64,000 nt of DNA from Polaribacter atrinae (GTDB lineage Bacteria; Bacteroidota; Bacteroidia; Flavobacteriales; Flavobacteriaceae). Below the pieces are notes generated by a model. That model ran no database searches. It was not told the DNA's origin and saw nothing but the letters and a program-made list of their open reading frames with translations. Position numbers and translations under genes: made by a program. Below, one piece after another: positions 16,488 through 39,848 of this stretch (the first letter of the stretch is position 1; every line of letters begins with the position of its first letter). The stretch lies in contig NZ_CP150660.1 of NCBI RefSeq assembly GCF_038023995.1, positions 25,001 to 89,000 of the forward strand. The letters are read 5' to 3'.

Positions 16488-16520
16488 GGGGTTTGTGTTT
16501 GTTAAGTTTAAAAAAATGTA

Positions 16521-18731
16521 TTATTTTTTAATTAATTTTTTAGTGATAAATTGTTCTTCAGAATTAATTTTAAGGATATAAACTCCTTTTGATAAATCTG
16601 AAATATCAATAGAGTTTTTACTTTTAGTAATTTCTGAGGTTGATATCAATTTACCTAATACATTGTAAATAGTAATTTTTGCCTCTTTTGTAACACTAAA
16701 GTAAATGGTACTTCCATTTGTTGGATTCGGAAACATTTTAAAACTTTCAAAAGTGTTTTTAGTAGTTGTTAAAGTACTAGTATGGCTACCCAAACCGTCT
16801 GCAGTATTTGCAGGGAAAGGTGTCCATTCACCTTGTAAATCAAAAGTTGTATTTGGTGCACTGATATCACCATTTCTTCTTAATGTTTTGTTTACTGCAA
16901 AATTAGCGCCGTTACCAAATTCTCCTATAATATCTATTAATACGTTATCTTTAAATAAACCAATGGCGTCATTACCTGTAAAGTTTACAGGTTGCCCCCA
17001 GTTCGTTTCTTCAATAACTGGTTGTACTAAATCTACCTGACCAATGGTATTTGTTTCTGAATAAGTTTGTAATTCAGGAATTGAGTTCTTTCCATTTCCA
17101 ATTACAAAAACATCTCCGGGAACAATATTTTTAACAGTTCCGCTATCTAGTGCTAGTGGAGATACCCATTCGCCAGTATCATTTCTATCTAGTTTTATTA
17201 CATAACCAGATAAACTTACTGTACCTCCAGTTAAATTAACAATTTCTAATGCTTTGTTTGTTCCTCCGTCACCTTCAAAATATTCAGAGAAAAATAATTC
17301 TGAAGCAGAACCTCCAGATGCTCCATCTGTTGTTGTTGCATTTACGGCAGTACTTTGTGCCGATTTATTATCATCTTTATCTTTTGCTAAAACCGTTATA
17401 CTATAAGTAGTAGATGTTGCTAAACCAATAACAGCATAAGTAGTTGTAGTAGAAGTTTCTTTAAAGGTTCCATCAATAAAAATATCATAACCAGCTACTT
17501 CGTTGTTATCGGAAGATGCAGACCAGTTTATATTAAAAGAACTATCTGTGATGTCTGTAATGGTAACGTTTGTAGGAATTGATGGTGCTGTAGTATCTGC
17601 TAAGGTTGTACCGACCACTTCATTACTTGCTTCAGATTTGTTAATTAAATCTTTAGCAATTACCTTAAAATTATAAGTTGTATTTGTTTCTAAACCTGTA
17701 ATAGAGGCAGAGGTAGCTGTTGTTGTTTGTTTGGTTAAAACATCATTAACATACACTTGATATTGTGCAACGCCAATATTATCTGTAGAAGCAGTCCAGG
17801 AAATATCTATAGAAGTTAAGGTTTGGTTGCTTAAAGTAACATTAGTTGGTGCAGTAGGAGCTTCTGTATCACTACTTGTATAAATTCCCCAAGTATCTTC
17901 TGCGTTTTCTCCTCCCCAAATTCTAGTAGCTAAAAAAGGGTTGTCTATAAATGGATTTCTGTTTCCTTGTGCATAGGTATTTGAAGTATTTTCATGATAG
18001 TTGTTTCTTTCTTTTTCAATATCAGAAACAGGATCTTCTCTGTTCCATTTTAAGAACAAGTCAATCATATCATCAGGCGTAAATTGAGAATCTCCAACAC
18101 CAACATTTGTTGGTAAACATTGGCTACCATAACGCAAGTACATATACATTATAATTCTAGAAACATCTCCTTTCCATTCATCTCCAGGATACCAACCTCT
18201 TGTGTCTGCACCATCAGGACCATTGTAAGTAATAGAAGAACGCCCTGAGTTTCCACTATCTAATGCAAATTTGTAGTTGTTTCTTTCTGAGTTTCTATTT
18301 TTGTCTGCGGGTCTTAAATTATGTGCATCTGTTCCCGCACCTGGGTTGTCTGTAATTAAACTTGGGTTAGCAAGCGATTTAGAGAATACATGTTCTCTAT
18401 TCCATACAAAAGTAGCACCTGTACCGGCATCTTGTAAAGAATTATCTCTAGTTCTGTCATTAGTAATATCACTATCAGAACCATTTTCCCAACCGTAAAT
18501 TAAAACAACAGAGTCTGGCTCATCAATAACTCTATCTGTAATTTTAGAAGCAGCCCAAACACCAGGAGTATAGCTTAACATATTGGAATGTGTGCTAATA
18601 ATCTTGGTTGCTAAAGCATCTTTTAAATTGATGCCTGTTAATTGTAAATTTACATCATCGTAATAATCTTCTTGAGTGTAGGAAGTTAAAGATGTAATTG
18701 TTAAAATAAAAAGAAGTAGTTTTTTTACCAT
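16521..18731 (-). CDS. Secreted endonuclease I family nuclease with FN3, lamin-tail and T9SS domains
   Basis: The start is set at the ATG at 18731 (736 residues), which begins the signal peptide (MVKKLLLFILTITSLTSYTQ). The longer frame would add a second hydrophobic stretch in front of it. Domain order: endonuclease I (NREHVFSKS, DAHNLRPADKNRNSERN, WYPGDEWKGDVSRIIMYMY), two FN3 domains, a lamin-tail-like domain (about 470-620, ELFFSEYFEGDGGTNKALEIVN) and a T9SS type-A sorting domain (FKMFPNPTNG, YNVLGKLIS, LSKGVYILKI, KKLIKK). It is a tandem duplicate of the next gene, but the region before the sorting signal differs. Role as for its neighbour: extracellular nucleic acid degradation. It is the first gene of the two-gene operon. 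Confidence 0.92.
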   Translation of the reverse strand: MVKKLLLFILTITSLTSYTQEDYYDDVNLQLTGINLKDALATKIISTHSNMLSYTPGVWAASKITDRVIDEPDSVVLIYGWENGSDSDITNDRTRDNSLQDAGTGATFVWNREHVFSKSLANPSLITDNPGAGTDAHNLRPADKNRNSERNNYKFALDSGNSGRSSITYNGPDGADTRGWYPGDEWKGDVSRIIMYMYLRYGSQCLPTNVGVGDSQFTPDDMIDLFLKWNREDPVSDIEKERNNYHENTSNTYAQGNRNPFIDNPFLATRIWGGENAEDTWGIYTSSDTEAPTAPTNVTLSNQTLTSIDISWTASTDNIGVAQYQVYVNDVLTKQTTTATSASITGLETNTTYNFKVIAKDLINKSEASNEVVGTTLADTTAPSIPTNVTITDITDSSFNINWSASSDNNEVAGYDIFIDGTFKETSTTTTYAVIGLATSTTYSITVLAKDKDDNKSAQSTAVNATTTDGASGGSASELFFSEYFEGDGGTNKALEIVNLTGGTVSLSGYVIKLDRNDTGEWVSPLALDSGTVKNIVPGDVFVIGNGKNSIPELQTYSETNTIGQVDLVQPVIEETNWGQPVNFTGNDAIGLFKDNVLIDIIGEFGNGANFAVNKTLRRNGDISAPNTTFDLQGEWTPFPANTADGLGSHTSTLTTTKNTFESFKMFPNPTNGSTIYFSVTKEAKITIYNVLGKLISTSEITKSKNSIDISDLSKGVYILKINSEEQFITKKLIKK

Positions 18732-18778
18732 AGATAATAAAATTAAGTTAAAAATAAGTACTTTCTTTTTCAGCAATT

Positions 18779-18817: not shown

Positions 18818-20029
18818 TTATTTTCTTTCTAAAAGTGCCATGTAAAATCCGTCGAAACCAGAAATATGTGCAAGTACTTTTTTATCGGATACAAATGTAA
18901 AGTCTTTTCCTGCATCGGATGTTAAGAAATGATTAACTTGTTCTTGGTTTTCTGATGGTAATACAGAACAAGTAGCATACACCATTTTTCCGCCTGGTTT
19001 TACCATTGTAGAATATTGTTGTAAAACATCTTGTTGTATTTTCTTTATGTTTTCTATAAACTCTGGCTGTAATTTCCATTTAGAATCTGGGTTTCTACGG
19101 ATAACACCTAAACCAGAACAAGGAGCATCAATTAAAACTCTGTCTGCTTTACCTTGTAATTTCTTAATAGGTTTTGTAGAATCTATAACACGCATATCTA
19201 TGTTGTGTGCTTTATTTCTTTTTGCTCTAACTTTTAATTTACGCAATTTACTTTCGTAAATATCCATGGCAATAATTTGACCTTTATTTTCCATTAAAGC
19301 AGATAAATGCAATGTTTTACCTCCTGCACCTGCACAAGTATCAATTACTTTCATACCTGGTTTAACGTCTAAATAAGCAGCAACAAGTTGTGATGATGCA
19401 TCTTGAACTTCAAAATAACCAGCATGAAAAGCTTCTGTTTTAAATACATTTGCTCTTTCAGGTAAAATTAAAGCATCAGGATGGTTTGGTACAAATTCTG
19501 TAAGTACATTTTCTGCTCTTAATTTCTTTTGAAGTGCGCCTCTAGTAATGTTTAGCGTGTTTGTTCTTAAAATTACACTTGCTTGTACATTTAAAGCTGC
19601 AATTTCTTTAGTCCAAACTTCTTCACCTAATTCTTTAGAACACATTTCATCCATCCAATCAGGTATAGATTCCCTATACTTTCTTGTTTTAGATAATTCA
19701 GCAAAACGCCCTTTTATTCTTCTTTCTGGTACATCACCAATTTGATTCCAATCTGGTAATGCAATTCCTCTTAGAATACACCATACAGAGAATAATCTCC
19801 AGATATTGTCTCTATCATAAGGCGTTTTTACTTCTGCAATTTCGCTATATAAACGATTCCAACGAACAATGTCGTATATGGTTTCTGCTACAAATTTACG
19901 GTCTCTTGCTCCCCAACGTTTATCTCGCTTTAAAGCTTTTTCTACTGCTTTATCAGCATAAACACCTTCATTAAATATATCTCTTATGCTGTCAATAACT
20001 GCAAAAGTTAAGTTTCTGTGTAATCTCAT
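18818..20029 (-). CDS. RsmB/NOP-family rRNA (cytosine-C5) methyltransferase
   Basis: The start is taken at the ATG at 20029 (403 residues, MRLHRNLTFAVIDSI...); the longer frame adds an unlikely MYICALYSKEI. The N-terminal part (about 1-120) resembles the NusB-like RNA-binding domain of RsmB. The C-terminal SAM domain has the AdoMet loop DTCAGAGGKTLHLSA, then MDIYESKLRKLKVRAKR, the catalytic motif IDAPCSGLGVIRRNPDSKW and the second cysteine in YATCSVLPSENQEQV. It methylates a cytosine of 16S rRNA (C967 in E. coli RsmB). The exact target in this lineage is an inference. It is probably a single-gene unit with a -7 box at 20052-20059. Confidence 0.9.
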   Translation of the reverse strand: MRLHRNLTFAVIDSIRDIFNEGVYADKAVEKALKRDKRWGARDRKFVAETIYDIVRWNRLYSEIAEVKTPYDRDNIWRLFSVWCILRGIALPDWNQIGDVPERRIKGRFAELSKTRKYRESIPDWMDEMCSKELGEEVWTKEIAALNVQASVILRTNTLNITRGALQKKLRAENVLTEFVPNHPDALILPERANVFKTEAFHAGYFEVQDASSQLVAAYLDVKPGMKVIDTCAGAGGKTLHLSALMENKGQIIAMDIYESKLRKLKVRAKRNKAHNIDMRVIDSTKPIKKLQGKADRVLIDAPCSGLGVIRRNPDSKWKLQPEFIENIKKIQQDVLQQYSTMVKPGGKMVYATCSVLPSENQEQVNHFLTSDAGKDFTFVSDKKVLAHISGFDGFYMALLERK

Positions 20030-20051
20030 TATTTCTTTTGAATATAATGCA

Positions 20052-20059
20052 CAAATGTA
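20052..20059 (-). promoter_or_regulatory. Promoter -7 box of the rRNA methyltransferase gene
   Basis: The minus-strand TACATTTG fits TAnnTTTG and ends 22 bases before the ATG at 20029, which supports that start codon. Confidence 0.45.
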
Positions 20060-20188
20060 CAAAATCTGCCTTACGAATCATTAGTTTTGATTCATTTTTA
20101 ACTTTAGATAGGTTTTAATAAGATTCAGTATTATTTATAGTGTTTTGTGTTTTCTTTTATTAATGGTAATTGTTGTCATAAATGAATC

Positions 20189-20442: not shown

Positions 20443-21396
20443 TCAAAATAGCACTTTCTTATTTATGATGCCTTTATCTGTATTTAACCTTACAATGTAA
20501 ATACCCGTTGGTATTTGATTATTAATTGCTAATTGGTAAGAGTTTTTTAGTTCTTTAATTTCCCAAAAATTGGTTTTTTTACCAAGAATATTATATAAGG
20601 CTACTTTATATATTGTTACTTCTGGGTTTTTAGAAATAATTACGTTTTGATTTTTATTATCAGCATATATAATTGTTTCTTTCATTAGTGTATTTCTATC
20701 TACACTTAGTGCTTCAGATTCTTTAAAAGCTAAAACAAAACGTTCTGTGCAGACCCCTTTATCTAAGGTTATATTGATTTTTCCGTTTTCTAAGTTATAG
20801 GTGTTTCCTGTAAGTTTATCTTTTATATAAATGTCTCTAGAAACATTTTGAATTTGATCTAGCATTAAATTTACTTCTCCAGAATAGCCCATCGTTATTT
20901 CTAAAGGAACTTCTAAATCGTCAGATATTTCTTGTACACCAGTAATTACATATTTTCTATGATCATCAGAAAATTTCCAATAGATATGCGTGTCATTTGT
21001 TTCAAAAGATTCAGAGTCATATCCTTTCTCATAATCAAATGAATTTGATTCTTGAAAAGAAACTGCTATTTGACTATGTAATAATAAGTCATCTGTATTT
21101 TTATACTCAAATCCTAACTTAATAATTGGTAATAATTCTGCAGTGTTTGTTGTTTTTAATTTATTAGTCCTGTAATTTTTTAAAGGACTTTCTATTGTAC
21201 TTAAAATAGGAACGCTTTCTTCACACAGTAAAGATGCTGTTTTTATAGGTGTTGTGTTCGCATAAGTTTGTGGAATGAACAACAATGATAGGGTTAAGGT
21301 TAAAAACAAGATTTCTTTTTTGTTTGTGAAGTATTGAGTTTTAAAAAAATCAGATACTTGAAAAATTAATTCTAATAGGTTTTTATCTTTATTCAT
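20443..21396 (-). CDS. Short T9SS type-C sorting domain protein
   Basis: A 317-residue protein. It has a long polar N-region, a hydrophobic segment at about 28-45 (EILFLTLTLSLLFIPQTYA) ending in a signal-peptidase-like site, and then almost only the C-terminal module of the large surface proteins encoded next to it. Shared blocks are LPIIKLGFEY, FDYEKGYDSE, YWKFSDDHRKYVITGVQEIS, LEVPLEI, DIYIKDKLTG, ERFVLAF, ADNKNQNVIISKN, VALYNILGKK and PTGIYIVRLNTDKG..NKKVLF. It looks like a surface protein stripped of its functional part, or a short carrier of the sorting module. No catalytic domain is visible. It should pass the outer membrane by T9SS if the signal peptide works. Confidence 0.7.
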   Translation of the reverse strand: MNKDKNLLELIFQVSDFFKTQYFTNKKEILFLTLTLSLLFIPQTYANTTPIKTASLLCEESVPILSTIESPLKNYRTNKLKTTNTAELLPIIKLGFEYKNTDDLLLHSQIAVSFQESNSFDYEKGYDSESFETNDTHIYWKFSDDHRKYVITGVQEISDDLEVPLEITMGYSGEVNLMLDQIQNVSRDIYIKDKLTGNTYNLENGKINITLDKGVCTERFVLAFKESEALSVDRNTLMKETIIYADNKNQNVIISKNPEVTIYKVALYNILGKKTNFWEIKELKNSYQLAINNQIPTGIYIVRLNTDKGIINKKVLF

Positions 21397-21701: not shown

Positions 21702-24700
21702 TTATTCTATAATTACTTTTTTATTTATGTTACCTTTATTAGTGTCCATTTTTACAACATAGATACCTGTTGGTAATTGTTTGTAGATGTCTAGTTGGTA
21801 ATCATTTTTTTGTTCTTTAATATTCCAAAGGCTTATTTTTTTACCTAAAATATTAAATAACGCTACGTTATTAATTTCTATGTCACTGTTTTTAGAAATT
21901 ACAATCTGGTTGTTTTTATTGTCTGTGTAGATGTTTGTGTTTTTTGCTAGTATATCGTTTTCAACATCTAATACAGTGCCTGTTTCGTTCGTAAAGGTCA
22001 AAACAAACCTATCAATGTAAGTGCCTTTTTGTAGTTGAAATGCAGCGCTAGCATTATTTATTTTTTGTGTTTTACCCGTAAGTTTGTCTTTAATGAATAC
22101 ATTTTGATTGATGTTACTCTTTTCATCGATACGAATAGTGATTACACTATTTTTACTAACAACAATTTCTAAAGGTATTTCTAATTCATTAGATATTTCT
22201 TGTACACCAGCAATTACATAATTACGTTGATCATTCGGAAACTTCCAATAGAAGTCTGTAGAATTCATATCGTACATTTCAGAATCGGAGCCTTTGTCAT
22301 AGTCAAAAGAGTTTTCTTGATTAAAAGAGATTCCTATTTGACGATGATAATTGTTTCCTACCTCATTAGAGTAGTTCATGCCTAGTTTTAAGATAGGCAG
22401 GCTAGAGTTATCAGTTTTTTCTGTTGTTTTCTTTTTATCACTTTTAAAAAATACAGATTCTTCAGATTCTTTTGTAATATATGCTCTTTGACTATTGTTA
22501 AAAATAATTTTACCTTTCGTGTTACTACCTTCTACAAAAAAACCTTGTCCTATTGCAATATAAGGCTCTGGAGCTTTGTACTTGTCTGCATAGCTAGTTC
22601 CTCCTGTACTAGGAACACAATCAATTTCACCATTCTTATTTATAAGTGTTATTTTGTCTATTTTAACACTAGATTGATCATTTGTAGAGGTTAGTGTAAT
22701 ATCACTACCTGCTGCTACACATAAAGTTAATACTTTATCAACATAATTATTATTTGTATTCGTAAAAGTAATATCACCTTTCTCGATGTCATTTACTTTT
22801 AGTTTTAAAACTTTGTCGTTAGTACTAGCATAGGTTATTATTAAAGTATCTATTCCGTTAGAAATATTATTAATTTTTAGGTAGTCATATTCATTTAGTG
22901 AAACTGCACTAATAGTCCCCGAATTAATTATAAGTCCATTATGTTCTGCTTCTTCTGCTTCTAGTAATATCTCTACAGGATCATTTGAATTAGCAACATA
23001 TGCATTTGTAGCCATATCTTTATTTTGAGACGCATATCCACCTATATACCCTCCAAAGTTATGACCAGCTGTTCCATTGGTAGACTCTTCACCAACGTGT
23101 TGCCAAAAATATAACGTACCTGTGGTAGTATTTATATTGTCTTGAATAAATTTTCTAGCATTCATGGCGGACGGAAAAGGGTTTCCAATTAAATAAGATT
23201 CTCCGCTATTAATTTCATTTACGGTAGTAAAACTACCATCATTAGGTGTACCTACAAATGTGTAGTTTTGTATTTGTCCGGGCCCCTTAAATATATATCC
23301 ATCACCTTTATTTATGGTTCCGTTTTTATATTTATGTTCCCAGTTAGATCTTCCGTTGCTTCCAGCAGCGTATGTATAAATCCAATAATCTGCTAGTTTA
23401 AGAAGCCCTTCGTTATAAGAACCATCATAACCAGAAACAAAATCAATTTCTTTAGGCTCATTGGCATTGGTACCATCTTTAAAAACTGTTTCTAGTGTAT
23501 AAGTATTTTCACCTATGGTAGTAACAGGAGAACTCATATAATTATAACGATATTTACTAGGGACTTCAGATTCTTGATTTACAAATAGTTTTCCGTTACC
23601 AGTAATTTTAGTCGAATTGGTATGAGTTTGTACTAGTTGTGAGTTACCTAGTAAACGAATGTTTCCGTCTAATTTTATGTTGTTATTCACAACGAGTAAA
23701 TTATCTGTTATTGTTAATTCTTTACTAAGATCTACTTCTAGTTTTCTAGCGCTTAGTTTATTATTTATGTGATTATAATTTTCATCTATTTGTACATAAC
23801 GAGATCTATCCGGATATCCATTATCCCAAAGAGGTAGGGTTTCAGTAGAGTTTGTAGTTGTTTTACCAATTCTATGTAAGCCTAGTAAGGTATTTGCTTC
23901 TTTAGAAGAATTAAATACCTCTGAAATTAATGGAGCTTGTGGATGTCTGCTTATACTGATAATATCTGCACCAGATCCAGATTGATAGGTGGCGATATCA
24001 TCATCTATAAAAGTTACCCATTCTTCGGAATCGTAATTTTTGTTTGGCTTTAATACTTCGTCTATTCTTACTAAAGAGGTGTTGTCTTTAATTGAAGTGA
24101 CAACATCATACCTATTTTCCCAGGCTGTTGCATCAATTTTTTTTGTAGTTATTATAATATCTTTACTATCACTAAAATCTGTAATTGCAGCTTGTTCTAT
24201 TGCTAAGCCATTTATAGCAGTAATTTTAGAACTTGGTTTTTTTATCAATACTGATGCTCCTGGAGCTATTTCTGCATTTATGTAAAAAGTTGAAGAAGGT
24301 TTAACATCTGTTAGGTCTCCTGACACATTTTTAAATAATGCCAAAGCAATTTTGTTTGCAGGTATTGTTTCTGTGGTGTTTGTATTTGTAACTTCTATCC
24401 ATCTGTCTGTTGTATCATAATGAAGCACTTGCGTAATCATAGCAGATTCAAAAGCGGTGTTATCAGTAGGACCAATGTAAATGTCGTAATCTTCAATTTC
24501 TCCTCTTTGACTACCAAAATTACATGCAGAAGTTGGAGCTGAAGTGTGTTTAATACTTACACGTAATCTTGTTTTACCAAGGGTAGCAGTTTCTGGTACT
24601 AAAATATCTGTAAGTGCTATATTAAAAACACTATTAGAATTTCCTGAACCAGGATTGGATGTGCTAAAAACTTTATCCTCAGAGTCAGAAAAATCACCAT

Positions 24701-26204
24701 TATTATTATAGTCTATCCAAACTGTAACAAATGTATCATTATTAGGGTCTCTAGTATACGTTATTTCTCCAGAAAAAGTTTCTCCTGCAACAATATTTGT
24801 TGAGACATTTTTATAATATTTGTATACATCAGCATTTTTATCACTAGAATTATTAATGTTACCAATCTTAACATTAGAAATGTAGTATCTGGAGTCCTTA
24901 TTCACATCTACGTCGTCATTACAATATTGTACTTCTACTGTTGTAAAAGTGATAATACCTGTAAAATCATTACTACAAGTAGTAGCTGTTTTAACTTGTA
25001 CGTCATATTCTAAACCATCATCTAAACCAGTAATCTTTTTATATTTTAAGCTAGAAGTAGTTTCGTTCCAATCAGTAGTTCCTTTTAGGCGATGTTGTAT
25101 TATAAAAGGGCCTTCATCTTCAGATTCCCAGCGAACTATAGCTGTGGTTTCACTAATATTTGTTATTGAAATGGTAGGTGTTGCTGGATTTTTTATTGTA
25201 ATATTTTGTGTACTAATTTTAGTAGTTGTTCCATTATTAAATATCCAATCTATTTTATAAGTACCTGGTGTTTTAAAAGAGATAGGATCTGTAGTTGTAG
25301 CTGTAATTTCTTGATTACAATTAAGGTTCATTACAGGTGTAATTGCTGTATAAGAACAATATTCTGTTATATCTTCTAGAGTAGGAGTAACAAAGTTTCC
25401 AGTATAAGGTTTTACGTTTACAGTAGTTGTAGACGTAGCTTTTAATCCATCTGAATCTGTTACAGTTAAAGTAACTGTAGATGGTGTTGAAATATCGTTA
25501 CAATCAAAAATATACTTATCTAATGAGAATATTAAATCTAATCCATTTGAACTGTCAAAAGCATCATAGGAACCATTGTTAATGTCTTCTGTAGTTATAG
25601 TTGCATTTCCAAGAACATCTAAATTAAGATCTATATTGTTAATGCTTTTTGCAATTGGAGCTTCTGCAACATCTTTTATATAAATATCGTAATCTTCTGT
25701 TTCTCCAACTTGGTTTTCTGCATTACAGGCATCACTTAAATTATTTCTATTGATAGCAATACGCATTCTAGTTTTACCTGTTTTAGCAGTTGAAGGTATG
25801 TTTATTTGAAAATTTTTTATGATACCGTCTGAACTGTAAGGTTCGGAAACGGTGTTAACATAAACGACTTCTCCTTTGTCTGAGAAATCACCATCGCTAT
25901 TGAAATCAATCCATATCTTTAGTGTACTTTGATTGTTGTTTTGTACATTATACCTAACAGAAGCAGCATAATTTTGCCCTAGATACACATCTGTAGATGT
26001 AGACAAAGTATTGTAATATTCATATACTTTGGCAGTATTATTAGAGTCTTGAAATAGGTCCCCAAAACTGACCTTACTTATAAAGAACTCTTTATTGTTA
26101 TCTGTTTTAGTAGGTATACAATATGAAGATTGAGCGTTGCTATTATTGATTATAGCGCTTAGTAGTACAATACTAAAAAGGATATGTTTTTTTAGATTAG
26201 GCAT
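21702..26204 (-). CDS. Large T9SS surface protein (GEVED, FN3, CBM6-like, type-C sorting)
   Basis: The start is set at the ATG at 26204 (1500 residues), which begins the signal peptide MPNLKKHILFSIVLLSAIIN; the longer frame adds 36 residues that would bury it. Approximate order: GEVED domain (to about 175, ending VGETEDYDIYI), an HYR/cadherin-like region with DSDGLKATSTTTVNV, an FN3 domain, a second GEVED domain (ending GEIEDYDIYI, near 585), a lamin-tail-like region, and then a long C-terminal module. That module begins near IRLLGNSQLVQTHT and YNYMSSPVTT, is interrupted by a CBM6-like domain (VEILLEAEEAEHNG ... VKIDKITLI), resumes at PEPYIAIGQGFFVEG and ends in the type-C sorting domain (NVALFNILGKK, PTGIYVVKMDTNKG, KKVIIE). 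It is predicted to be secreted and surface-bound, with an adhesion or glycan-binding role. Palindromes upstream suggest control by a repressor or activator. Confidence 0.85.
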   Translation of the reverse strand: MPNLKKHILFSIVLLSAIINNSNAQSSYCIPTKTDNNKEFFISKVSFGDLFQDSNNTAKVYEYYNTLSTSTDVYLGQNYAASVRYNVQNNNQSTLKIWIDFNSDGDFSDKGEVVYVNTVSEPYSSDGIIKNFQINIPSTAKTGKTRMRIAINRNNLSDACNAENQVGETEDYDIYIKDVAEAPIAKSINNIDLNLDVLGNATITTEDINNGSYDAFDSSNGLDLIFSLDKYIFDCNDISTPSTVTLTVTDSDGLKATSTTTVNVKPYTGNFVTPTLEDITEYCSYTAITPVMNLNCNQEITATTTDPISFKTPGTYKIDWIFNNGTTTKISTQNITIKNPATPTISITNISETTAIVRWESEDEGPFIIQHRLKGTTDWNETTSSLKYKKITGLDDGLEYDVQVKTATTCSNDFTGIITFTTVEVQYCNDDVDVNKDSRYYISNVKIGNINNSSDKNADVYKYYKNVSTNIVAGETFSGEITYTRDPNNDTFVTVWIDYNNNGDFSDSEDKVFSTSNPGSGNSNSVFNIALTDILVPETATLGKTRLRVSIKHTSAPTSACNFGSQRGEIEDYDIYIGPTDNTAFESAMITQVLHYDTTDRWIEVTNTNTTETIPANKIALALFKNVSGDLTDVKPSSTFYINAEIAPGASVLIKKPSSKITAINGLAIEQAAITDFSDSKDIIITTKKIDATAWENRYDVVTSIKDNTSLVRIDEVLKPNKNYDSEEWVTFIDDDIATYQSGSGADIISISRHPQAPLISEVFNSSKEANTLLGLHRIGKTTTNSTETLPLWDNGYPDRSRYVQIDENYNHINNKLSARKLEVDLSKELTITDNLLVVNNNIKLDGNIRLLGNSQLVQTHTNSTKITGNGKLFVNQESEVPSKYRYNYMSSPVTTIGENTYTLETVFKDGTNANEPKEIDFVSGYDGSYNEGLLKLADYWIYTYAAGSNGRSNWEHKYKNGTINKGDGYIFKGPGQIQNYTFVGTPNDGSFTTVNEINSGESYLIGNPFPSAMNARKFIQDNINTTTGTLYFWQHVGEESTNGTAGHNFGGYIGGYASQNKDMATNAYVANSNDPVEILLEAEEAEHNGLIINSGTISAVSLNEYDYLKINNISNGIDTLIITYASTNDKVLKLKVNDIEKGDITFTNTNNNYVDKVLTLCVAAGSDITLTSTNDQSSVKIDKITLINKNGEIDCVPSTGGTSYADKYKAPEPYIAIGQGFFVEGSNTKGKIIFNNSQRAYITKESEESVFFKSDKKKTTEKTDNSSLPILKLGMNYSNEVGNNYHRQIGISFNQENSFDYDKGSDSEMYDMNSTDFYWKFPNDQRNYVIAGVQEISNELEIPLEIVVSKNSVITIRIDEKSNINQNVFIKDKLTGKTQKINNASAAFQLQKGTYIDRFVLTFTNETGTVLDVENDILAKNTNIYTDNKNNQIVISKNSDIEINNVALFNILGKKISLWNIKEQKNDYQLDIYKQLPTGIYVVKMDTNKGNINKKVIIE

Positions 26205-26243
26205 TTTTATATGTGATAAACGAAAGTTATTTTTATTTTTTGT

Positions 26244-26264
26244 AGAATAGAATTGTTCTATTCT
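26244..26264. promoter_or_regulatory. 21-bp palindrome with a third half-site, candidate operator
   Basis: AGAATAGAA (26244-26252) and TTCTATTCT (26256-26264) form a perfect inverted repeat with a 3-base centre. A further half-site GGAATAGAA lies at 26272-26280. The set is 40 to 76 bases upstream of the ATG at 26204, a typical operator position. The regulator is unknown. Confidence 0.5.
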
Positions 26265-26388
26265 AAATTTTGGAATAGAACATGTGTTGTTAATAACCTT
26301 ATAGCAAAACAATACTTTAGTAGTACTGATTGTGCGTTGTAAAATTTTTAAAAACTTTTAAAAGAGTAGTTGCTTTCTGTTGTTAACT

Positions 26389-26734: not shown

Positions 26735-26772
26735 AAAAAAAAACACCCTATTAAAATTATTTTAATAGGGTG
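26735..26772 (-). terminator. Terminator of the truncated type-C gene
   Basis: Arms CACCCTATTAAAA (26744-26756) and TTTTAATAGGGTG (26760-26772) are perfect. A long T-run follows on the minus strand. It lies about 50 bases behind the stop codon at 26822. Confidence 0.92.
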
Positions 26773-26821: not shown

Positions 26822-29215
26822 CTACTCAAAAAGTACTTTTTTATTTATGTTACCTTTATCTGTATTCACTTTTACAATGTAGACGCCTGTTGGTAATTGT
26901 TTATAGATGTCTAGTTGGTAATCACTTTTTTGTTCTTTAATATTCCAAAGAATTACTTTTTTACCAAGAATATTAAATAACGCTATGTTATTAATTTCTA
27001 CATCATTGTTTTTAGAAATTACAATTTGGTTATTTTTATTGTCGGCATATACATTTGTATAGGTAGACAATAATTCGTCTTCAATACTAAGAACCGCGTC
27101 TTGTGCAGTGGTAAATGCTAAAACAAATCTATCTGTATAAGTACCTTTTTTTAATTGGTATGTAGCACTAACATCATTTATTTTTTGTGTTTTACCTGTT
27201 AATTTATCTTTTATATATATGTCTTGATTGATGTTTTTTATTTCATCAACATTTATAGTAATTATACTATTTTGGTTGACAACAATCTCTAAAGAAACTT
27301 CTAAATCATTAGAGATTTGTTGTACACCAGCAATAACATAGGTACTGTTGTTGTTAGGGAATTTCCAATAGAAGTCTGTAGCACTCATGTTATTCATTTC
27401 AGAATCATATCCTTTTTCATAATCAAAAGAGTTTGCTTTATCAAAAGAAATACCTATTTGACGATGTAAATTATTTCCTTCGTTATTAGAATAATTCATA
27501 CCTAATTTTAAGATTGGTAAGCCAGAATTTGATGTTTTTTCCGTTGTTTTCTTTTCACTTTTAAAGAAAACAGATTCACCAGATTCTTTTGTAATGTATT
27601 CTCTTTGACTATTGTTAAAAACAACTTTTCCATTTGTTGTATTCCCTTCAATGAAAAAACCTTGTCCAACAGCAATATATGGTTCTGGAGTTTTGTATTT
27701 GTCAGTGTATTCTTCACCACCTGTATTCGGAGCGCAAGAGATTTGTCCGTCTTCATCTTTAAAAACTACTTTGTCAACAAAAATACTATGGCCATCACTA
27801 CTAGAAGTCAATGTAACATTACTACCAGCTTCTATACATAAAGCAATTTTAATTTCTTTATATAATAAGCCAGTGTTAGGAAATGTAATTTCTCTTCTGT
27901 CTGTATTGTTAATTTTAATTTTTAATGTTTTATCATAAAAAGATGCATAAGTTATTCTTAATGAGTCTACACCTCTAGAAATATTAGGAAACGTAATATG
28001 GTCTTCATTATTTAAAGAAATTACAGAGAAACCAATCATTGGTATTGATATTTCAAATCCATCTCCTTCAAGGGCATCTTCTGCTTCTAAGGTATAATTT
28101 ACAGGTTCATTTTGGCTAGTAGCATTTGCTGCAGTAGCCATTGTTTTGTTTTGAGTAGCATAACCACCAATGTAACCTGCAAAATTATGCCCTGCAGTAC
28201 CTTCATCCTCATCTTCTCCTACATGTTGCCAAAAGTATAGCGTTCCTGTTATTGAATCTTCGTTATCTTCTATAAATTTTCTAGCATTCATTGCAGAAGG
28301 AAAAGGATTACCAATTAAGTAAGATTGTCCTGCGTTTATTTCATTAATAGTATTAAACTCACCATCATTTGGTGTCCCTACAAATGTGTAGTTTTGTTCT
28401 TGTCCTGGTCCTTTAAATATGTAACCATCTCCTTTATTTATAGCTCCGTCTTTATATTTGTGCTCCCAATTAGATCTACCGTTACTGCCTGCAGCATATG
28501 TATATACCCAATAATCTGCTAAAGAAATATCAGTACCATTCACTGCACCATCATATCCAGAAACAAAAGTAATTTCTTTTGGAGTATTAGTTATTGTTCC
28601 GTTTCTAAGAACAGTTTCTAAAGTATAGGTACTTTCCCCTAAAGTAGTTACTGGAGAACTCATATAGTTGTAACGATATATACTTGGTACTTCAGATTTT
28701 TGATCAACAAAAAGTAAACCAGAACCCGATACTGTACTTAAACTTGTATGTGTTTGTACTAATTGAGAAGTACCAGATAAACGTATGTTTCCGTTTAATT
28801 CGATATTATTAGTAACTACTAATAAATTATTTGTGACTAATAATTCTTTAGAAGTGTCTATTTTTAGTTTTCTAGCACTTAATATATCTGTTGTATGGTT
28901 GTAATCTTCATCTATTATAACATAACGAGATCTGTCTGGAAAACCATTATCCCAAGTTCCATCTAAATTTCTAGTAGTTTCTTTAATTCTGTGTAAACCA
29001 AGTAATGTGTTTGCATCGGTATTAGAGCTTAGTATTTCTGATATTAATAATTCTTGCGGATGTCTTCTTTGGATAATAGCTGTAGATATTGCACTATTTA
29101 CTACATCATAAGTAGCTATTGCATCATCTATAAATACACCCCACTCAGCAGCGTCATAATCTTTATTAGTATTAGTCGTTTCATCTATTCTTACAAATGA
29201 TGTTTTGTTGGTCAT
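26822..29215 (-). pseudogene. T9SS type-C surface protein, 5'-truncated
   Basis: The 797-residue frame begins inside a domain, at MTNKTSFVRIDE, and has no signal peptide. Homology to the 1500-residue neighbour starts even before this methionine: codons upstream read TNRYDVISN, matching ENRYDVVTS there. It then follows the neighbour through HPQELLISEI, TLLGLHRI, NGFPDRSRYV, IRLSGTSQLVQTHT, YNYMSSPVTT, the nested CBM6-like domain (YTLEAEDALEGDGF ... IFVDKVVFKD), PEPYIAVGQGFFIEG and the type-C sorting domain (NIALFNILGKK, PTGVYIVKVNTDKG, KKVLFE). About the first 800 residues of a full gene are missing. Homology stops around 29250-29275, where an inverted T9SS relic begins. Without a signal peptide the product could not be exported, so it is probably a pseudogene. 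Confidence 0.8.
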
Positions 29216-29252
29216 ATTTGAAATAACATCGTATCTGTTTGTCCATGAATAA

Positions 29253-29456
29253 GTTCCTGATAAAAATGAGCATGATTTAGAGCTAAAGAATGTGAAATTA
29301 TATAATCTTTTAGGACAGAAAATTGGTCAATGGAATAACTTAGATCAAAAAGCGAAACAACAAAGATTAAAAACAACTAAATTATCTGATGCTATCTACA
29401 TTATTAATATAGAAACAGATAAAGGTAAACTTTCAAAGAAAGTTGTATTAGAATAA
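29253..29456 (+). pseudogene. Inverted relic of a T9SS type-C sorting domain
   Basis: A plus-strand frame of 67 codons, opening right after a TAA at 29250-29252, reads as the very end of a type-C protein: VKLYNLLGQKIGQWNNL, then LSDAIYIINIETDKGKLSKK and VVLE before the stop. It aligns with the neighbours' NVALFNILGKKI..W, PTGIYVVKMDTNKGNINKK and VIIE. No start codon or body precedes it. Directly upstream lies the truncated gene in the opposite direction. A strong terminator (29483-29532) still follows. It is the 3' tail of a lost fourth family member. Confidence 0.8.
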
Positions 29457-29482
29457 ATTGTTGAGGTTTATTAGTTATTTTT

Positions 29483-29532
29483 AAATAGTTCTATTAATTT
29501 TTATTATAAAAATTAATAGAACTATTTTTTTT
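29483..29532 (+). terminator. Terminator behind the inverted sorting-domain relic
   Basis: A 20-base-class perfect stem: AAATAGTTCTATTAA (from 29483) pairs with TTAATAGAACTATTT (to 29527), with a minimal loop, followed by a T-run. It is preserved although its gene is gone. Confidence 0.88.
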
Positions 29533-29645
29533 AGAAGAGTTTGGTTATTAATTAAAAAAAAAAGACCATTCTTATCTTCAAAAATGATGAATTTCTCCAT
29601 TATTAATATGGATTTCTGTATTTTCGTTTTTTATATTTTTTAAAA

Positions 29646-31742
29646 TTGAATTTAAACTACCCAATAACATATATTAAAGGAATTAGTGTACAAAGAGCAT
29701 CGCTTATGTATACAGAATTGGGTATAAAAACGTGTAACGATTTACTCAATTTTTTTCCCAATAGATATATCGATAAAACTACTTTTTACGCAATAAAAGA
29801 CTTGCAGCCAAATTCTTCAGAGGTTCAAATTGTAGGTAAAATTACACGCGTAAAATCGGTAGCTCAAAAAAGAGGTAGTAGATTGGTGGCCACCTTTCAG
29901 GATGCTACTGGAAGCATGGAGTTGGTTTGGTTTAAAGGACAAAAATGGATTAAAGATGCGCTAAAAATTAATGAACCTTACGTGGTTTATGGTAAGCTGA
30001 ATCATTATAATGGTAATTTTAGTATTCCGCACCCAGAGTTAGAGTTGGTGGTAGAATACAAAAAAAAGTTGCAAACCAAAATGCAACCTGTGTACCCGTC
30101 TACAGAAAGACTTGTGAACTCTGGTGTTTCTAATAAATTAATGAGAACGTATGTTCAGCATTTATTACAACAGTTTTTCGAAGTAATTACAGAAACATTA
30201 TCACAAGAAATAATAGACAATTTTAAATTGATGTCTAAACGAGATGCTTTGCTAAATGCACATTTTCCTAAAAGTCAAGAAAATTTAGCGAAGGCTCAAA
30301 ATCGATTAAAATTTGAAGAATTATTTTTTATTCAATTACAATTATTACGAAAAAAACTCATTAACAAAACAAAAATAAAAGGCTTTGTTTTTGAAAACGT
30401 GAGCGATTATTTTAATACATTTTATAAAGACCATTTACCATTCAACCTAACGAATGCTCAAAAAAGAGTATTAAAAGAAATTCGAAAAGATGTGGCTTCT
30501 GGTGCTCACATGAATCGCCTTTTACAAGGAGATGTTGGTTCCGGAAAAACCATTGCAGCCCTATTAACCATGCTTATGGCAATAGATAATGGTTACCAGG
30601 CAACCATTATGGCACCAACAGAAATTTTAGCAACGCAACATTACCACGCAATTTCAGAAATGTTGAAAGACATGGATATAAATGTAGATTTATTAACAGG
30701 ATCTGTTAGGGTAAAAAAACGAAGAGAAATTCATGCGAATTTAGAAGATGGAACTTTACATATTTTGATAGGAACACACGCTTTGTTAGAAGATAAAGTA
30801 AAGTTTAAAAACCTAGGAATTGCAATTATTGATGAGCAACACAGATTTGGAGTTGCACAAAGAGCTAAATTGTGGACCAAAAATATTTTGCCGCCCCATA
30901 TTTTAGTAATGACGGCAACACCAATACCAAGAACATTGGCTATGTCTGTATATGGAGATTTAGATATTTCTGTGATAGATGAATTACCTCCAGGAAGAAA
31001 AGAAGTGAAAACGGTACATAGATATGATAGCAACCGTTTGGCTGTTTTTAAATTTATGAGAGATGAAATTGAAAAAGGACGACAAGTATATGTTGTGTAT
31101 CCTTTAATTCAAGAGTCTGAAGCCATGGATTATAAAGATTTAATGGATGGTTATGAAAGTATTTCAAGAGATTTTCCAACGCCAAAATATCAAATAAGTA
31201 TTGTACACGGTAAAATGAAACCTGCAGATAAAGAACATGAGATGCAGCGTTTTGTAAAAGGAGAAACACAAATTATGGTGGCTACAACCGTAATAGAAGT
31301 TGGAGTAAATGTGCCTAATGCAAGTGTTATGATTATTGAGAGTTCAGAACGATTTGGGCTTTCTCAATTACATCAATTAAGAGGAAGAGTAGGACGTGGA
31401 GGAGACCAAAGTTATTGTATTTTACTTTCTAGTTATAAATTGTCTGAAGAAGGGAAAACACGATTAAAAACCATGGTAGATACTACCGATGGTTTCAAAA
31501 TTGCTGAAGTAGATTTAAAATTACGTGGTCCAGGTAACTTAATGGGTACGCAACAAAGTGGTGTTTTAAACCTTAAAATTGCTGACGTTGTAAAGGATTC
31601 TAAAATTTTAGTTGCCGCAAGAAATACGGCAATTAGTGTTTTACAAGAGGATTCTAATTTATCGCAACCAGCAAACATCAATATTAAAAAAGCATATGTA
31701 GAATTGTCTAAAAATTCTAAAATTTGGAGCGAGATTAGTTAG
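29646..31742 (+). CDS. recG: ATP-dependent DNA helicase RecG
   Basis: A 698-residue protein of normal RecG length. The start is a TTG at 29646, since the next in-frame methionine (MYTELG) would remove the conserved N-terminal YPITYIKGISV. It has a wedge/OB-fold domain (about 50-150: VGKITRVKSVAQKRGSRLVATFQD), the Walker A motif GDVGSGKT, a DEAH-like box IDEQHRFGV, MTATPIPRTLA, and helicase C motifs (VATTVIEVGVNVPNASVMII, QLHQLRGRVGRG). It ends with the RecG-specific segment DLKLRGPGNLMGTQQSG. It reverses stalled replication forks and processes Holliday junctions. Its stop lies 8 bases inside the convergent MFS gene. Confidence 0.97.
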   Translation: MNLNYPITYIKGISVQRASLMYTELGIKTCNDLLNFFPNRYIDKTTFYAIKDLQPNSSEVQIVGKITRVKSVAQKRGSRLVATFQDATGSMELVWFKGQKWIKDALKINEPYVVYGKLNHYNGNFSIPHPELELVVEYKKKLQTKMQPVYPSTERLVNSGVSNKLMRTYVQHLLQQFFEVITETLSQEIIDNFKLMSKRDALLNAHFPKSQENLAKAQNRLKFEELFFIQLQLLRKKLINKTKIKGFVFENVSDYFNTFYKDHLPFNLTNAQKRVLKEIRKDVASGAHMNRLLQGDVGSGKTIAALLTMLMAIDNGYQATIMAPTEILATQHYHAISEMLKDMDINVDLLTGSVRVKKRREIHANLEDGTLHILIGTHALLEDKVKFKNLGIAIIDEQHRFGVAQRAKLWTKNILPPHILVMTATPIPRTLAMSVYGDLDISVIDELPPGRKEVKTVHRYDSNRLAVFKFMRDEIEKGRQVYVVYPLIQESEAMDYKDLMDGYESISRDFPTPKYQISIVHGKMKPADKEHEMQRFVKGETQIMVATTVIEVGVNVPNASVMIIESSERFGLSQLHQLRGRVGRGGDQSYCILLSSYKLSEEGKTRLKTMVDTTDGFKIAEVDLKLRGPGNLMGTQQSGVLNLKIADVVKDSKILVAARNTAISVLQEDSNLSQPANINIKKAYVELSKNSKIWSEIS

Positions 31743-36043: not shown

Positions 36044-39000
36044 ATGAAATTTACAACTCCTTTATTTTTTGTTTTTGCACTTCTGCAAATGACAGTAATG
36101 GCCCAAAGTTTAAAATATAGCGGCCCTAATTATTTTGATATTACAGAAGTCGATTTTGTAGGAGCTACAAATGGTATTATTTCTTATGAAACAACTCCTA
36201 ATGGGATGGCATTTGGAGATGGAGGAACAAAATTTTATGTGGTTGGTTCTAGTGCAAATTTTATTAGTCAATTTAACTTAACCACACCTTACGATTTATC
36301 TACAATGTCTCATTTAGATAAAAACTATTTTATAGAATCTAGTGTAGATAATAATCCAGAAGATGTAACTTTTAATACATCTGGCTCTAAAATGTACATT
36401 ACAGGAGAAAGTAATATTAATATTACAGAATTTGATTTACCTATAAATTGGGATGTTTCTTCTGCCATAATTAATGATACTTTTGATATTTCTGCAGCTA
36501 TATTTTCTTATGATGGGTCTTCAGCAACAAGGCCTCATGGTATTACTTTTAATAATGACGGTTCTAAACTATATGTATTAGAGAGAGATACCGATAAAGT
36601 TTACGCATTTAATCTAACTACTGTTTATGATGTTTCTACAGCAAGTTCAACGGGTGTTGTAGATTTAGATGTTTCTAGTCAAGAAGGCAATCCAAGAGGA
36701 CTTGCTTTTAATAATGATGGAAGTGAACTATATGTTATTGGGACGACCGGTGATGATATAAATACTTACACTTTTCCGTCAGGGAGTGAATTTAATTTAT
36801 CACTAGCTAGTTACTCTTCTAATTTTTCCATTCAAACGCATGAAAAAGAACCCCAAGAAGTTATTTTTAATGATATAGGTTCTAAATTTTACGTTCTTGG
36901 AACAGATGGAATAGACGTAGATGAATATACATTATCTACTAATTTCGATTTTACATCTACCGTAACATATTTAGATAGCTATAAAATAGAAACAATAGAA
37001 AAAACAACACATGATGTATTGTTTAATGCAGATGGTACTAAAATGTATGTTGCAGGAGATATTTTAAATTCGGTATCACAATTTTCTTTATCTACTCCGT
37101 ATGACATTTCAACAATAACTTTCGAAGATGCTTTATCCATTAGTAGTCGAGAAACATTTATTAGAGGTATACAATTTAATAATATTGGAGATCGGTTTTA
37201 TATTACTGGATCACAATCTGATGACATAGAAGAGTATTCTGTTTCTACTCCATTTGATTTATCTTCTAGTGTTAATCATTTAGGTAGTTATAATATAAAT
37301 TCAGAAGATTCAAATCCATCTAGTTTTACTTTTAATAATGATGGAAGTTTGTTATTTCTTTTAGGAAACAATACCGATAGAATAATTGTATATTCCCTTT
37401 CTACTAATTTCGATTTATCTGGTATTGCATCTGGTTCTATAGGTAGTTTTTCTGTTAATACAGATGATGATTCACCAACAGGTTTAGCTTTTAATAATGA
37501 TGGTACAAAGTTTTTTATTACAGGTAATGAATTTACAAAAGTTTTAGAGTATACATTAATTACTCCATTCGATTTAATTAGCAGGACACCAATTTTAACA
37601 AATGAATATTCGGTTAATGATACTGAAGTAAGGCCAACAGGGATTACTTTTAATAATTCAGGTTCTAAAATGTATGTAGTTGGTTTCCGTAATGATAATG
37701 TTAATGAGTATAATTTAAAAAAAGGTTTTTTACCCGAAGTAGCAGCAACAAATACCGGAACAATAAGTACTTCTAATCCATTAGTTGTAACTATAAGCGG
37801 AGATACTTTTGCAGATATTGATGGAGATGATTTACTTGATGAAAATACCGAGTTTACAATCACTAATTTACCAGAAGGACTAACACCTGTTTTTACGTTG
37901 TCTGACGCAGATACAGTAGCAACACTCTCTTTTACAGGAGTAGCAAAATCTCATTTAGATACAGATGATGTAGCAGATTTAGTTTTTAATTTTACAGATG
38001 CAGCCTTTACATCATCCACGGCAATAATGGTTACTAATGCGGTAGCTTTTTCAGACTTTGTAGGTATAAACTTTATAAATTGTTATGATGATATTATTTA
38101 TAATGGAAGTTGGTCTGGTGGAAGTGGAGTTAGTGGACAACCAACAGTAGCAGATGTAACAAAAGGAATTCGCATTCAATCTGATGTAACTTTAAATGAA
38201 GATGTAGATTGTTTTTGTTTAAATGTAGAATCTGGAAATACTTTATCAGTAACAACAGGTTTAGAGTTAAACGTTTCTAACTCTTTAGAATTAATAGGAG
38301 ATATCCGTTTATTGGGGACTTCTCAATTAAAGCAAACACATACAGGTGTTAAAAATGCATCAGGTTCAGGAAACCTTTATAAAGATGTAAAAGGAAATTT
38401 ATCTAACGTTTATCAAACAAGTTATTGGTCTTCTCCAGTAACAACAAATGGAGAAACATACAATATAAAAGGTGTTTTAAAAGACGGTACAATTCCGTTA
38501 GCAGCAACGGGTACACCTTTAGATATTTCTTTTACAGATAATTATAATGGAGATAATAGTACTTCTCCTATAAGATTAAGTAGAAGGTGGTTGGCTAAAC
38601 TTGTAAATAGTAATGATTGGACAAGGCAAATAAATGAATCTACAACGTTATTAAACCCTTCAGAAGGTTTTACTAAAAAAAGTACAGGAAATACAACTGG
38701 GCAAAATTATACTTTTGTAGGGAGACCTAATGATGGAGATTACACAAGTGAAATAGCTGCTTATGGTTCTGGTACATGGAGTGTTTTAGGTAATCCTTAT
38801 GCTTCTCCTATAAATGCAGATACCTTTATAGCTGATAATGCAGGAGTTATTGTTGGGTCATTATATTTTTATGATTCTGGTGATGATACTTCTCATGTAA
38901 GAGGAGAATATTTAGGAGGTTACGCAACAAGAACTTCCGGTATAGGAACTCCGGAATCTGGCATTGGAGGAACAGGAACGAAGACTCCAAGTCAGAATAT

Positions 39001-39568
39001 AGATATAGGTCAAGGTTTCTTTGTAGAAGCATCTGCTTCTGGAGGTTCTGTAAATTTTAATAACGCACAAAGAGTTTTTGATGTTTCTGGTGCTGCAACA
39101 GAAGTATTTCATAAAAGTAGTTTAATTACAAAGAAATCGGCTTTTCCTATTTTAAGAATAGGTTATGAGTTTTTGTTAACCGACCAAACGTATCATAGAC
39201 AAGTATCTGTTGGTTTTAGAGGATTAACAAATGAGTATGAAGATGGTTATGAAGCAGAAATGTGGGATTATAAATCCACAGATTTGTCTTTAAAAATTGA
39301 AGAAAAAGATTTTCCTTATGCTATTACGGGGATAGAAGATTTTAATAAATCTTTAGTAATACCTCTTAAAGTTCAAACCGATTTAAATAGAGATGTTACT
39401 TTTAAGATAGATGACATGACAGATATCGATTCTGAAGTCTATTTATATGATAGTGTCACTGAAAACTACGTTGATATAACTGTTACTAATGCAACAGTAA
39501 ATCTAGATTCTGGTGTTTATGATGATCGTTTTTTTATTACTTTTAATCAAACTGTTCTTGGTTTATAG
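36044..39568 (+). CDS. Large ten-repeat T9SS-type surface protein ending at a premature stop
   Basis: A 1174-residue product as written. Signal peptide MKFTTPLFFVFALLQMTVMAQ-like (cleavage about residue 20; first 20 residues hydrophobic). Residues about 45-560 hold ten repeats of roughly 50 residues, each with a core such as ITFNNDGSKLYVLER or LAFNNDGTKFFITGN, followed by DVYEFNL-TP-DLST-like strands. They probably form a beta-propeller or solenoid. Then comes a cadherin-like region (DIDGDDLLDENTEFTI) and the type-C family module (IRLLGTSQLKQTHTG, TSYWSSPVTTNGE, VGRPNDGDYT, NIDIGQGFFVEA, ILRIGYEF), without the CBM6-like insertion. The frame ends with FNQTVLGL and TAG, exactly before the sorting domain (39569-39808). 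As written, the protein would be exported to the periplasm but lack its T9SS signal. Confidence 0.8.
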   Translation: MKFTTPLFFVFALLQMTVMAQSLKYSGPNYFDITEVDFVGATNGIISYETTPNGMAFGDGGTKFYVVGSSANFISQFNLTTPYDLSTMSHLDKNYFIESSVDNNPEDVTFNTSGSKMYITGESNINITEFDLPINWDVSSAIINDTFDISAAIFSYDGSSATRPHGITFNNDGSKLYVLERDTDKVYAFNLTTVYDVSTASSTGVVDLDVSSQEGNPRGLAFNNDGSELYVIGTTGDDINTYTFPSGSEFNLSLASYSSNFSIQTHEKEPQEVIFNDIGSKFYVLGTDGIDVDEYTLSTNFDFTSTVTYLDSYKIETIEKTTHDVLFNADGTKMYVAGDILNSVSQFSLSTPYDISTITFEDALSISSRETFIRGIQFNNIGDRFYITGSQSDDIEEYSVSTPFDLSSSVNHLGSYNINSEDSNPSSFTFNNDGSLLFLLGNNTDRIIVYSLSTNFDLSGIASGSIGSFSVNTDDDSPTGLAFNNDGTKFFITGNEFTKVLEYTLITPFDLISRTPILTNEYSVNDTEVRPTGITFNNSGSKMYVVGFRNDNVNEYNLKKGFLPEVAATNTGTISTSNPLVVTISGDTFADIDGDDLLDENTEFTITNLPEGLTPVFTLSDADTVATLSFTGVAKSHLDTDDVADLVFNFTDAAFTSSTAIMVTNAVAFSDFVGINFINCYDDIIYNGSWSGGSGVSGQPTVADVTKGIRIQSDVTLNEDVDCFCLNVESGNTLSVTTGLELNVSNSLELIGDIRLLGTSQLKQTHTGVKNASGSGNLYKDVKGNLSNVYQTSYWSSPVTTNGETYNIKGVLKDGTIPLAATGTPLDISFTDNYNGDNSTSPIRLSRRWLAKLVNSNDWTRQINESTTLLNPSEGFTKKSTGNTTGQNYTFVGRPNDGDYTSEIAAYGSGTWSVLGNPYASPINADTFIADNAGVIVGSLYFYDSGDDTSHVRGEYLGGYATRTSGIGTPESGIGGTGTKTPSQNIDIGQGFFVEASASGGSVNFNNAQRVFDVSGAATEVFHKSSLITKKSAFPILRIGYEFLLTDQTYHRQVSVGFRGLTNEYEDGYEAEMWDYKSTDLSLKIEEKDFPYAITGIEDFNKSLVIPLKVQTDLNRDVTFKIDDMTDIDSEVYLYDSVTENYVDITVTNATVNLDSGVYDDRFFITFNQTVLGL

Positions 39569-39808
39569 CTTAATAAAATCAATAATTTTACAATTAAGAG
39601 TAAAGAAAAAGAACTCATAATTTCATCAAAAGAAGTAATAGAGAAAGTACAGATCTATAATTTGTTAGGGCAAAATGTTACTACTAAAATAAATTTATTA
39701 AAACAGCCTGAAGTAAAAGTTAATACAGCTAGTTTTAATAAGGGAATTTACATCGTTAGAGTAAAAAATTCAAACGGGAGTTTTACTAAGAAAATTAATA
39801 TCAACTAA
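39569..39808 (+). pseudogene. T9SS C-terminal sorting domain cut off by an in-frame TAG
   Basis: Directly after the TAG at 39566-39568, in the same frame, 79 codons run open to a TAA at 39806-39808. They encode IKSKEKELIISSKEVIEKV, then QIYNLLGQNV, FNKGIYIVRVKNSNGSF and TKKININ, a typical type IX sorting domain. No start codon or new promoter fits it as a separate gene. It belongs to the gene at 36044 and is separated only by one stop codon. Confidence 0.9.
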
Positions 39809-39833
39809 ATTTCCTTAATTGGTTTCCTAATTG

Positions 39834-39841
39834 TAGTTTTG
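39834..39841 (+). promoter_or_regulatory. Promoter -7 box very close to the DUF6787 start codon
   Basis: TAGTTTTG fits TAnnTTTG and ends 7 bases before the ATG at 39849, so the mRNA leader would be nearly absent. Confidence 0.45.
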
Positions 39842-39848
39842 TCGAAAT

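Follow-up and report, generated by a model that had tools for sequence, protein, structure and literature searches.

Two abutting 3' gene remnants between an rsmB-like gene and recG in Polaribacter atrinae, probably left by a deletion in an accessory slot

Gene content of the rsmB-recG interval

The window is the whole stretch of DNA of the marine bacterium Polaribacter atrinae that was analysed, 64,000 nucleotides long (G000:C1:25001-89000), and it belongs to a single-contig genome of 4.01 Mb. Within it, one interval is bounded on the left by a gene that we take to encode an rsmB-like RNA methyltransferase and on the right by recG. The interval holds a short gene and a long neighbour, N, of one protein family, followed by a third member whose 5' part is gone (truncated gene A) and by the 3' relic of a further member on the opposite strand (gene B). 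The coordinates of all features are collected in Table 1.

Table 1. Features of the rsmB-recG interval and its flanks, in window positions
Feature	Position	Strand	Description and basis
rsmB-like RNA methyltransferase gene (presumed name), conserved left flank	18818..20062	-	in 139/146 genus genomes at E <= 1e-100
Short family gene	20443..21396	-	ORF, 317 aa; leader and C-terminal portion of the module; TIGR04183 30.6 bits (cut-off 23); PF18962 21.1 bits (below cut-off 27); 321-aa ortholog in G133
Neighbour N, family gene with GEVED domains	21702..26312	-	ORF, 1536 aa; GEVED E = 2.2e-32; TIGR04183 27.5 bits (cut-off 23); PF18962 26.7 bits (narrowly under its cut-off of 27)
Terminator-like hairpin 3' of gene A	26744..26772	-	terminator scan
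Truncated gene A	26822..29260	-	C-terminal 812 codons including sorting tail, 5' part gone; 93.0% ungapped to G049 A; 71% protein identity to G091 A
Joint, probably of a deletion	29260..29261	.	no spacer, no detectable microhomology
Gene B relic	29261..29456	+	final 65 codons and stop; B tails of G054 and G091 78% identical in protein; TIGR04183 31.2 bits for 29292-29453
Hairpin and T-run, probable terminator of B	about 29484..29532	+	read by eye
recG, conserved right flank	29646..31742	+	in 138/146 genus genomes at E <= 1e-100; G021 recG has RecG Pfam domains

Extent and homology of truncated gene A

An ORF of 797 aa was present on the minus strand (26822-29215, first ATG at 29215), and the frame of gene A runs for 834 codons without a stop. 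Paralog alignments revealed that homology to the family runs on past the first methionine, upstream in frame. The identity to neighbour N was 66% over 812 aligned columns, with homology reaching 'SWTNRYDV', while a 2298-aa paralog at 1.79 Mb of the same genome showed 65% identity and homology to about 'CSFLSGTYSW' (near 29269). Both matches had E = 0, far beyond chance. A search of the genome revealed 17 places that match family members, and a scan of a collection of genome contigs revealed three distant relatives with 47-52% identity.

The nearest relative is G049, to whose gene A the window aligns from 26823 to 29260 (93.0%, 2438 bp, no indel), the match stopping at 29260. The G049 gene extends 5' into a frame of 1029 aa with a signal-like start and carries a frameshift of its own. 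A search for relatives of truncated A was conducted across 146 Polaribacter genomes, one per species, with up to six candidates scored per genome; among the matches listed, only the G049 gene (92%) was close. A relative with the same truncated arrangement, which the earlier note on this DNA had named as an argument against a scar, was not seen among the listed matches from these 146 genomes.

Residues of about 390-520 of the truncated product are missing in several paralogs, whose alignments stop at about 388 and pick up again near 518. Judged from these alignments, the segment looks like an optional inserted domain; it gave no Pfam match.

The relic of gene B and the joint

The plus-strand relic matched the truncated protein with E = 4.0e-9 and its best counterpart among the other tails of the genome with E = 6.4e-14. 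Protein identity of the relic to the B tails was 78% for G054 and G091, 72% for G133, 66% for G049 and 65% for G052, compared to 31-36% for A tails and 34% for the tail of truncated A. Because the relic is nearest to the B tails and far from the A tails, the truncated gene was assigned to A and the relic to B. The two also belong to different tail subgroups, NILGKK for truncated A and NLLGQ for the relic, and therefore the relic is no near twin of the truncated gene. By eye, the hairpin and T-run 3' of the relic are like those that follow B in G049, G052, G054 and G091, and the G133 hairpin is different. The G000 hairpin, at about 29484-29532, was absent from the output of the terminator scan.

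The blastn matches between G049 and the interval abut at 29260/29261 with a gap of 0 and an overlap of 0, the right-hand match covering the G049 B tail and recG (window 29261-31521, 84.2%). At 29260 the P. atrinae sequence agrees with G049 A and disagrees with all five aligned B sequences, and it is B-like from 29261. The earlier note had described minus-strand homology that continues beyond the first methionine and is ended by the plus-strand tail of another family protein, still with its terminator, and the end of the G049 match at 29260 bears this out. The join, which it had put near 29250-29275, is real and lies exactly between 29260 and 29261. The short homology that it had proposed to look for there was not found: microhomology was sought at 29260/29261, with relatives standing in for the parental sequences of the exact species, and none was detectable.

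The missing sequence amounts to about 9.5 kb by the layout of G091 and to 24.3 kb by that of G049. A and B are complete in G091; in G000 the 5' part of A and nearly all of B are gone and both 3' ends survive, as the earlier note had it. Searches of G000 for the lost parts revealed only partial, paralog-level matches. The N-terminal 1000 residues of A (G091 query) found best pieces of 48% and 58%. For the N-terminal 1400 residues of B (G133 query), a broken paralog gave 62% across residues 1027-1400, and residues 1-762 of the same query gave only a 37% piece. Relocation of the lost halves within the genome was rejected on these results. The locus shares with pseudogenes formed by deletion the intact orthologs in a relative and the loss of an essential part.

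Layouts in related genomes

The order in G091 is rsmB-like gene (-), A (-, 1838 aa), B (+, 1860 aa) and recG (+), which is the intact divergent pair that the earlier note had proposed to seek in relatives. In G049, A (-) is frameshifted into frames of 936 and 1029 aa and is accompanied by a 4099-aa gene (-) and by B (+, 2067 aa). Other minus-strand family genes occupy the rsmB side in G133 and G052, where B (+) adjoins recG (2064 and 2066 aa, respectively), and G054 has B alone (2029 aa). Thus all five genomes have a plus-strand B next to recG, and in G091 and G049 a minus-strand A is found towards the rsmB-like gene. The full-length relatives begin with a hydrophobic leader, as judged by eye. 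Several of the giant proteins have an extended N-terminus, LF(A/G/Q)xIxxFKL, before the hydrophobic core of the leader (G091 L071 from 7516 down; slots of G049, G044, G148 and G122), and this looks, from the sequences, like an extended signal-peptide region.

G049 and G052 contain broken pieces of family tails or of the short gene, and therefore loss that leaves 3' ends behind is not unique to P. atrinae. The copy of the short gene in G049 is about 0.4 kb shorter than that of G000. At the 3' end of G049 A, the last ~100 coding bases switch from resembling A of G000 to resembling N, and the region downstream is 66-100% like that of N and 48-62% like that of A in 60-column blocks. On this pattern, the 3' end of G049 A would be a mosaic from a tail-to-tail crossover between the tandem members A and N, or else the reverse gain would have occurred in G000. 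Gene conversion between truncated A and N was also considered and rejected: by eye there was no long N-like run in G000, and the identity to N differed between G000 A and G049 A by no more than 0.04 per 150-column window.

Sorting-domain assignment

The cut-offs used were 23 bits for TIGR04183 (type A), 40 bits for NF033708 (type C) and 27 bits for PF18962. All four window tails tested passed TIGR04183, truncated A with 32.5 bits and the other three with the scores in Table 1, as did the four proteins tested from relatives (G091 A, 34.3; G091 B, 30.1; G133 B, 31.3; a G013 gene, 27.0 bits). None of eight proteins reached the NF033708 cut-off, the best being G133 B with 23.6 bits, followed among others by the relic (18.9) and truncated A (16.5). 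The type C label that the family had been given was therefore dropped, and the tested tails pass as type A. Pfam agrees with type A for truncated A, but scores N and the short gene under its cut-off. In both A and B, the 800-residue module that precedes the tail hit no Pfam family.

According to the review PMC10202324, a Sec signal peptide is required of T9SS cargo. The proteins resemble the cargo with a type A C-terminal sorting domain treated there (TIGR04183/PF18962) in that the four window tails pass TIGR04183 and the full-length relatives carry leaders. They differ in that truncated A is leaderless, in that N and the short gene miss the Pfam cut-off, and in the 800-residue module outside any Pfam family. 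No hydrophobic leader, as would mark an N-terminal Sec signal peptide, could be seen by eye in truncated A.

Expression and selection of the remnants

The truncated ORF starts MTNKTSFVRIDE and has no leader, and the upstream frame, which is antisense to the B tail, offers none. The element TANNTTTG, which we take to be the promoter motif to be expected for truncated A, was not found on the minus strand between 29200 and 29660. One match to the looser TANNTTNG occurs at 29384 on the strand of truncated A. Sigma-70-like sites were at chance level, with 18 found against 22 expected.

Compared with G049, truncated A contains no stop and no indel over 812 codons, and the pairwise dN/dS is 0.14. The branch leading to G000 carries 27 nonsynonymous and 39 synonymous changes (28 and 38 with another set of columns). 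Under neutrality, about 48 nonsynonymous changes would be expected (37-59 across 2000 simulations under the pooled spectrum; no fewer than 34 under a flat one), together with 2.2 to 3.1 stops, the chance of zero stops being 0.05 or 0.12 depending on the spectrum. Purifying selection is thus still visible on this branch. The G000 and G049 branches did not differ (Fisher p = 0.49), and relaxed selection on truncated A went undetected in the branch counts and simulations.

Because an export signal is lacking, yet the frame has neither stop nor indel and its branch shows purifying selection, the loss of the 5' part of A was probably recent. A recent loss is the simplest account of the undecayed frame, which would also suit continued selection. 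Having neither a signal peptide nor a recognised promoter, truncated A is most likely not exported and a young pseudogene. The B relic would be an inert tail, and we infer that both remnants are silent.

Origin of the joint

The earlier note had left the choice between an inversion and a deletion. Each remnant has the same orientation and flank as its orthologs in relatives, which argues for a deletion and against an inversion, and the intact pair in G091 supports the former. On this reading, a divergent pair of large type IX secretion (T9SS) cargo genes once occupied the slot: minus-strand A towards the rsmB-like gene and plus-strand B next to recG, possibly separated by further genes. One deletion with a non-homologous joint would have taken the 5' part of A, the intergenic promoter region and any intervening genes, along with all of B except the last 65 codons and the probable terminator. 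What the sequences show is the pair of remnants and the orthologs of each in relatives, the joint, an orientation that has not changed, and no copy of the lost parts found elsewhere in G000. We infer that a single event was responsible, and we regard a plain deletion between divergent A and B, with the pieces fused, as the probable explanation. Two observations sit less easily with it: the remaining A frame is not decaying, as the codon comparison above indicates, and the divergence from G049 shifts at the joint (dS of 0.25 in A, 1.77 in the relic and 0.73 in recG), which a plain deletion does not by itself predict.

This shift bears on a different and rather unlikely account, in which related Polaribacter DNA was imported by homologous recombination on the rsmB/A side or the recG side with a non-homologous join on the other, the resident interior being replaced. 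The scar would then be, with the same modest chance, the edge of a transferred segment and not a plain internal deletion. To the left of the joint, dS between G000 and G049 is 0.24-0.37 for five genes (at 10606, 14457, 16521 and 18818, and A), compared to the higher values of the relic and recG on the right. The first 900 bp of recG have an identity of 0.86-0.89 to the group of G049, G133 and G052, whose members share 0.93-0.94 among themselves, and this gap shrinks further into the gene; to the left of the slot, G000 has G049-like alleles that are missing from G133 and G052. However, G000 is also an outgroup to these three genomes at the rsmB-like gene (0.37-0.46 versus 0.19-0.28), so the recG contrast may be ordinary, and the idea of a foreign recG in G000 is weakened accordingly. 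Moreover, dS to G049 ranges from 0.22 (53448-54836) to 0.92 (9295-10524) elsewhere in the window, and N and the short gene are at a dS of ~1.0 from their best matches in G049, matches that are non-orthologous or broken.

That the truncated ORF is a working gene, with a shortened protein or a new start site, is very unlikely. The 812 codons free of stops and indels and the purifying selection on the G000 branch would suit such a gene, but a recent loss would give the same codon pattern. The start at MTNKTSFVRIDE is leaderless and the upstream frame supplies no leader, against the Sec signal peptide that T9SS cargo requires (PMC10202324).

An inversion, in which a segment with its ends inside A and B was flipped, would explain why two 3' ends point away from one joint. 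We consider it extremely unlikely. No flip is needed, since B is found in plus orientation next to recG in G091, G049, G133, G052 and G054, and A in minus orientation towards the rsmB-like gene in G091 and G049; the reciprocal junction, which would unite the two 5' parts, was not found in G000. An assembly artefact joining two family members is just as improbable, for although the family is repeated in the genome (17 matching places) and the joint was judged from the assembled contig, the genome is a single contig of 4.01 Mb and the joined sequences have no homology in that orientation, which makes a repeat-driven mis-join unlikely.

With plain deletion as the preferred reading, the locus corresponds to the pseudogenes and fusion joints left by illegitimate deletion, in which two truncated genes abut without homology and relatives retain the intact order. 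Nothing sets it apart from these except that both victims belong to one family and both kept their 3' ends. It adds one more case to a known process, the ordinary decay of genes, here in a part of the genome that changes fast. What had been a guess from raw sequence is resolved as to the genes hit, the joint, the size of the loss and its probable recency. Isolated sorting tails can thus be debris, which matters when T9SS cargo is counted by C-terminal domains alone.

The slot across the genus

A survey of the rsmB-recG interval covered 146 genomes of the genus, drawn evenly from a larger group with one per species. The interval was scorable, with both flanking genes divergent on one contig, in 126 of them; the other 20 had no rsmB-like hit at threshold (7), no recG (2), the two genes on different contigs (10) or another orientation (1). 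The gap was at most 200 bp in 62 genomes, 201-500 bp in 11, 501-1500 bp in 24, 1501-4000 bp in 2 and above 4 kb in 27 including G000, a few gaps being inflated by partial matches (that of G058, 4150 bp, would drop just under 4 kb if corrected). Twenty slots, chosen partly for looking filled or for having family hits, were compared closely, and within this comparison the family module (E <= 1e-10) was found in 14 of the 16 slots above 4 kb, the other 11 large slots lying outside it. The contents vary, with a different protein of 3.1 thousand residues in G015 and a mixed cluster in G006. The slot of G098 holds a 1426-aa gene of Cas9 type (L082:3806-8083, -) with HNH_4, RuvC_III and Cas9_RuvC.

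The rsmB-recG interval is an accessory slot: its core flanks stay the same, its content varies, and in many genomes it is close to empty. Accessory hotspots flanked by core recombination and repair genes are a published behaviour (Oliveira et al. 2017, PMC5635113), and the slot fits it. As in that paper, a single interval between core genes is near-empty in many genomes and carries varying genes in others. In contrast to the hotspots described there, the slot was measured across the species of one genus and without the paper's statistical definition of a hotspot. A further difference is that 14 of the 16 large slots compared hold one protein family, the slots having been chosen partly for that. 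The open-licence literature searched yielded nothing on the rsmB-recG slot, on T9SS pseudogenes formed by deletion, on type C sorting in Flavobacteria or on GEVED domains in secretion.

These data point to a slot next to recG that repeatedly gains and loses very large secreted proteins across the genus. A more far-reaching idea, which we hold to be quite doubtful, is that the slot serves as a cassette for giant T9SS surface proteins; the conserved tails would be landing points for tail-to-tail swaps, of the kind visible at the end of G049 A. Truncated A and the B relic, as remnants reduced to their tails, would then be more than debris and would serve as docking sites for new genes.

Other observations

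The RecG of G021 (L046:15001-17568) has an in-frame insert of ~150 residues between its two helicase domains, which matches DUF559 and is nuclease-like (E = 1.9e-31). The recG frames are 844-872 aa long instead of ~700 in 33 of 138 rows of the genus, the insert having been identified in one genome, G021. A literature search on the RecG insert returned nothing.

Two secreted-protein genes lie to the left of the slot at 14457-18776 (-), and the one at 16521 has endonuclease I, fn3, lamin-tail and sorting domains. These genes closely resemble G049 alone (0.86-0.97 per 600-bp block) and for the greater part are distant from G133 and G052, a pattern that suggests a recent exchange. Further along the window, a gene at 36044-39568 (+) ends at 39568, and a sorting tail (VQIYNLLGQN...) goes on in the same frame past the stop (39302-39853). 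The secreted-type protein it encodes seems to have lost its T9SS tail through a premature stop.
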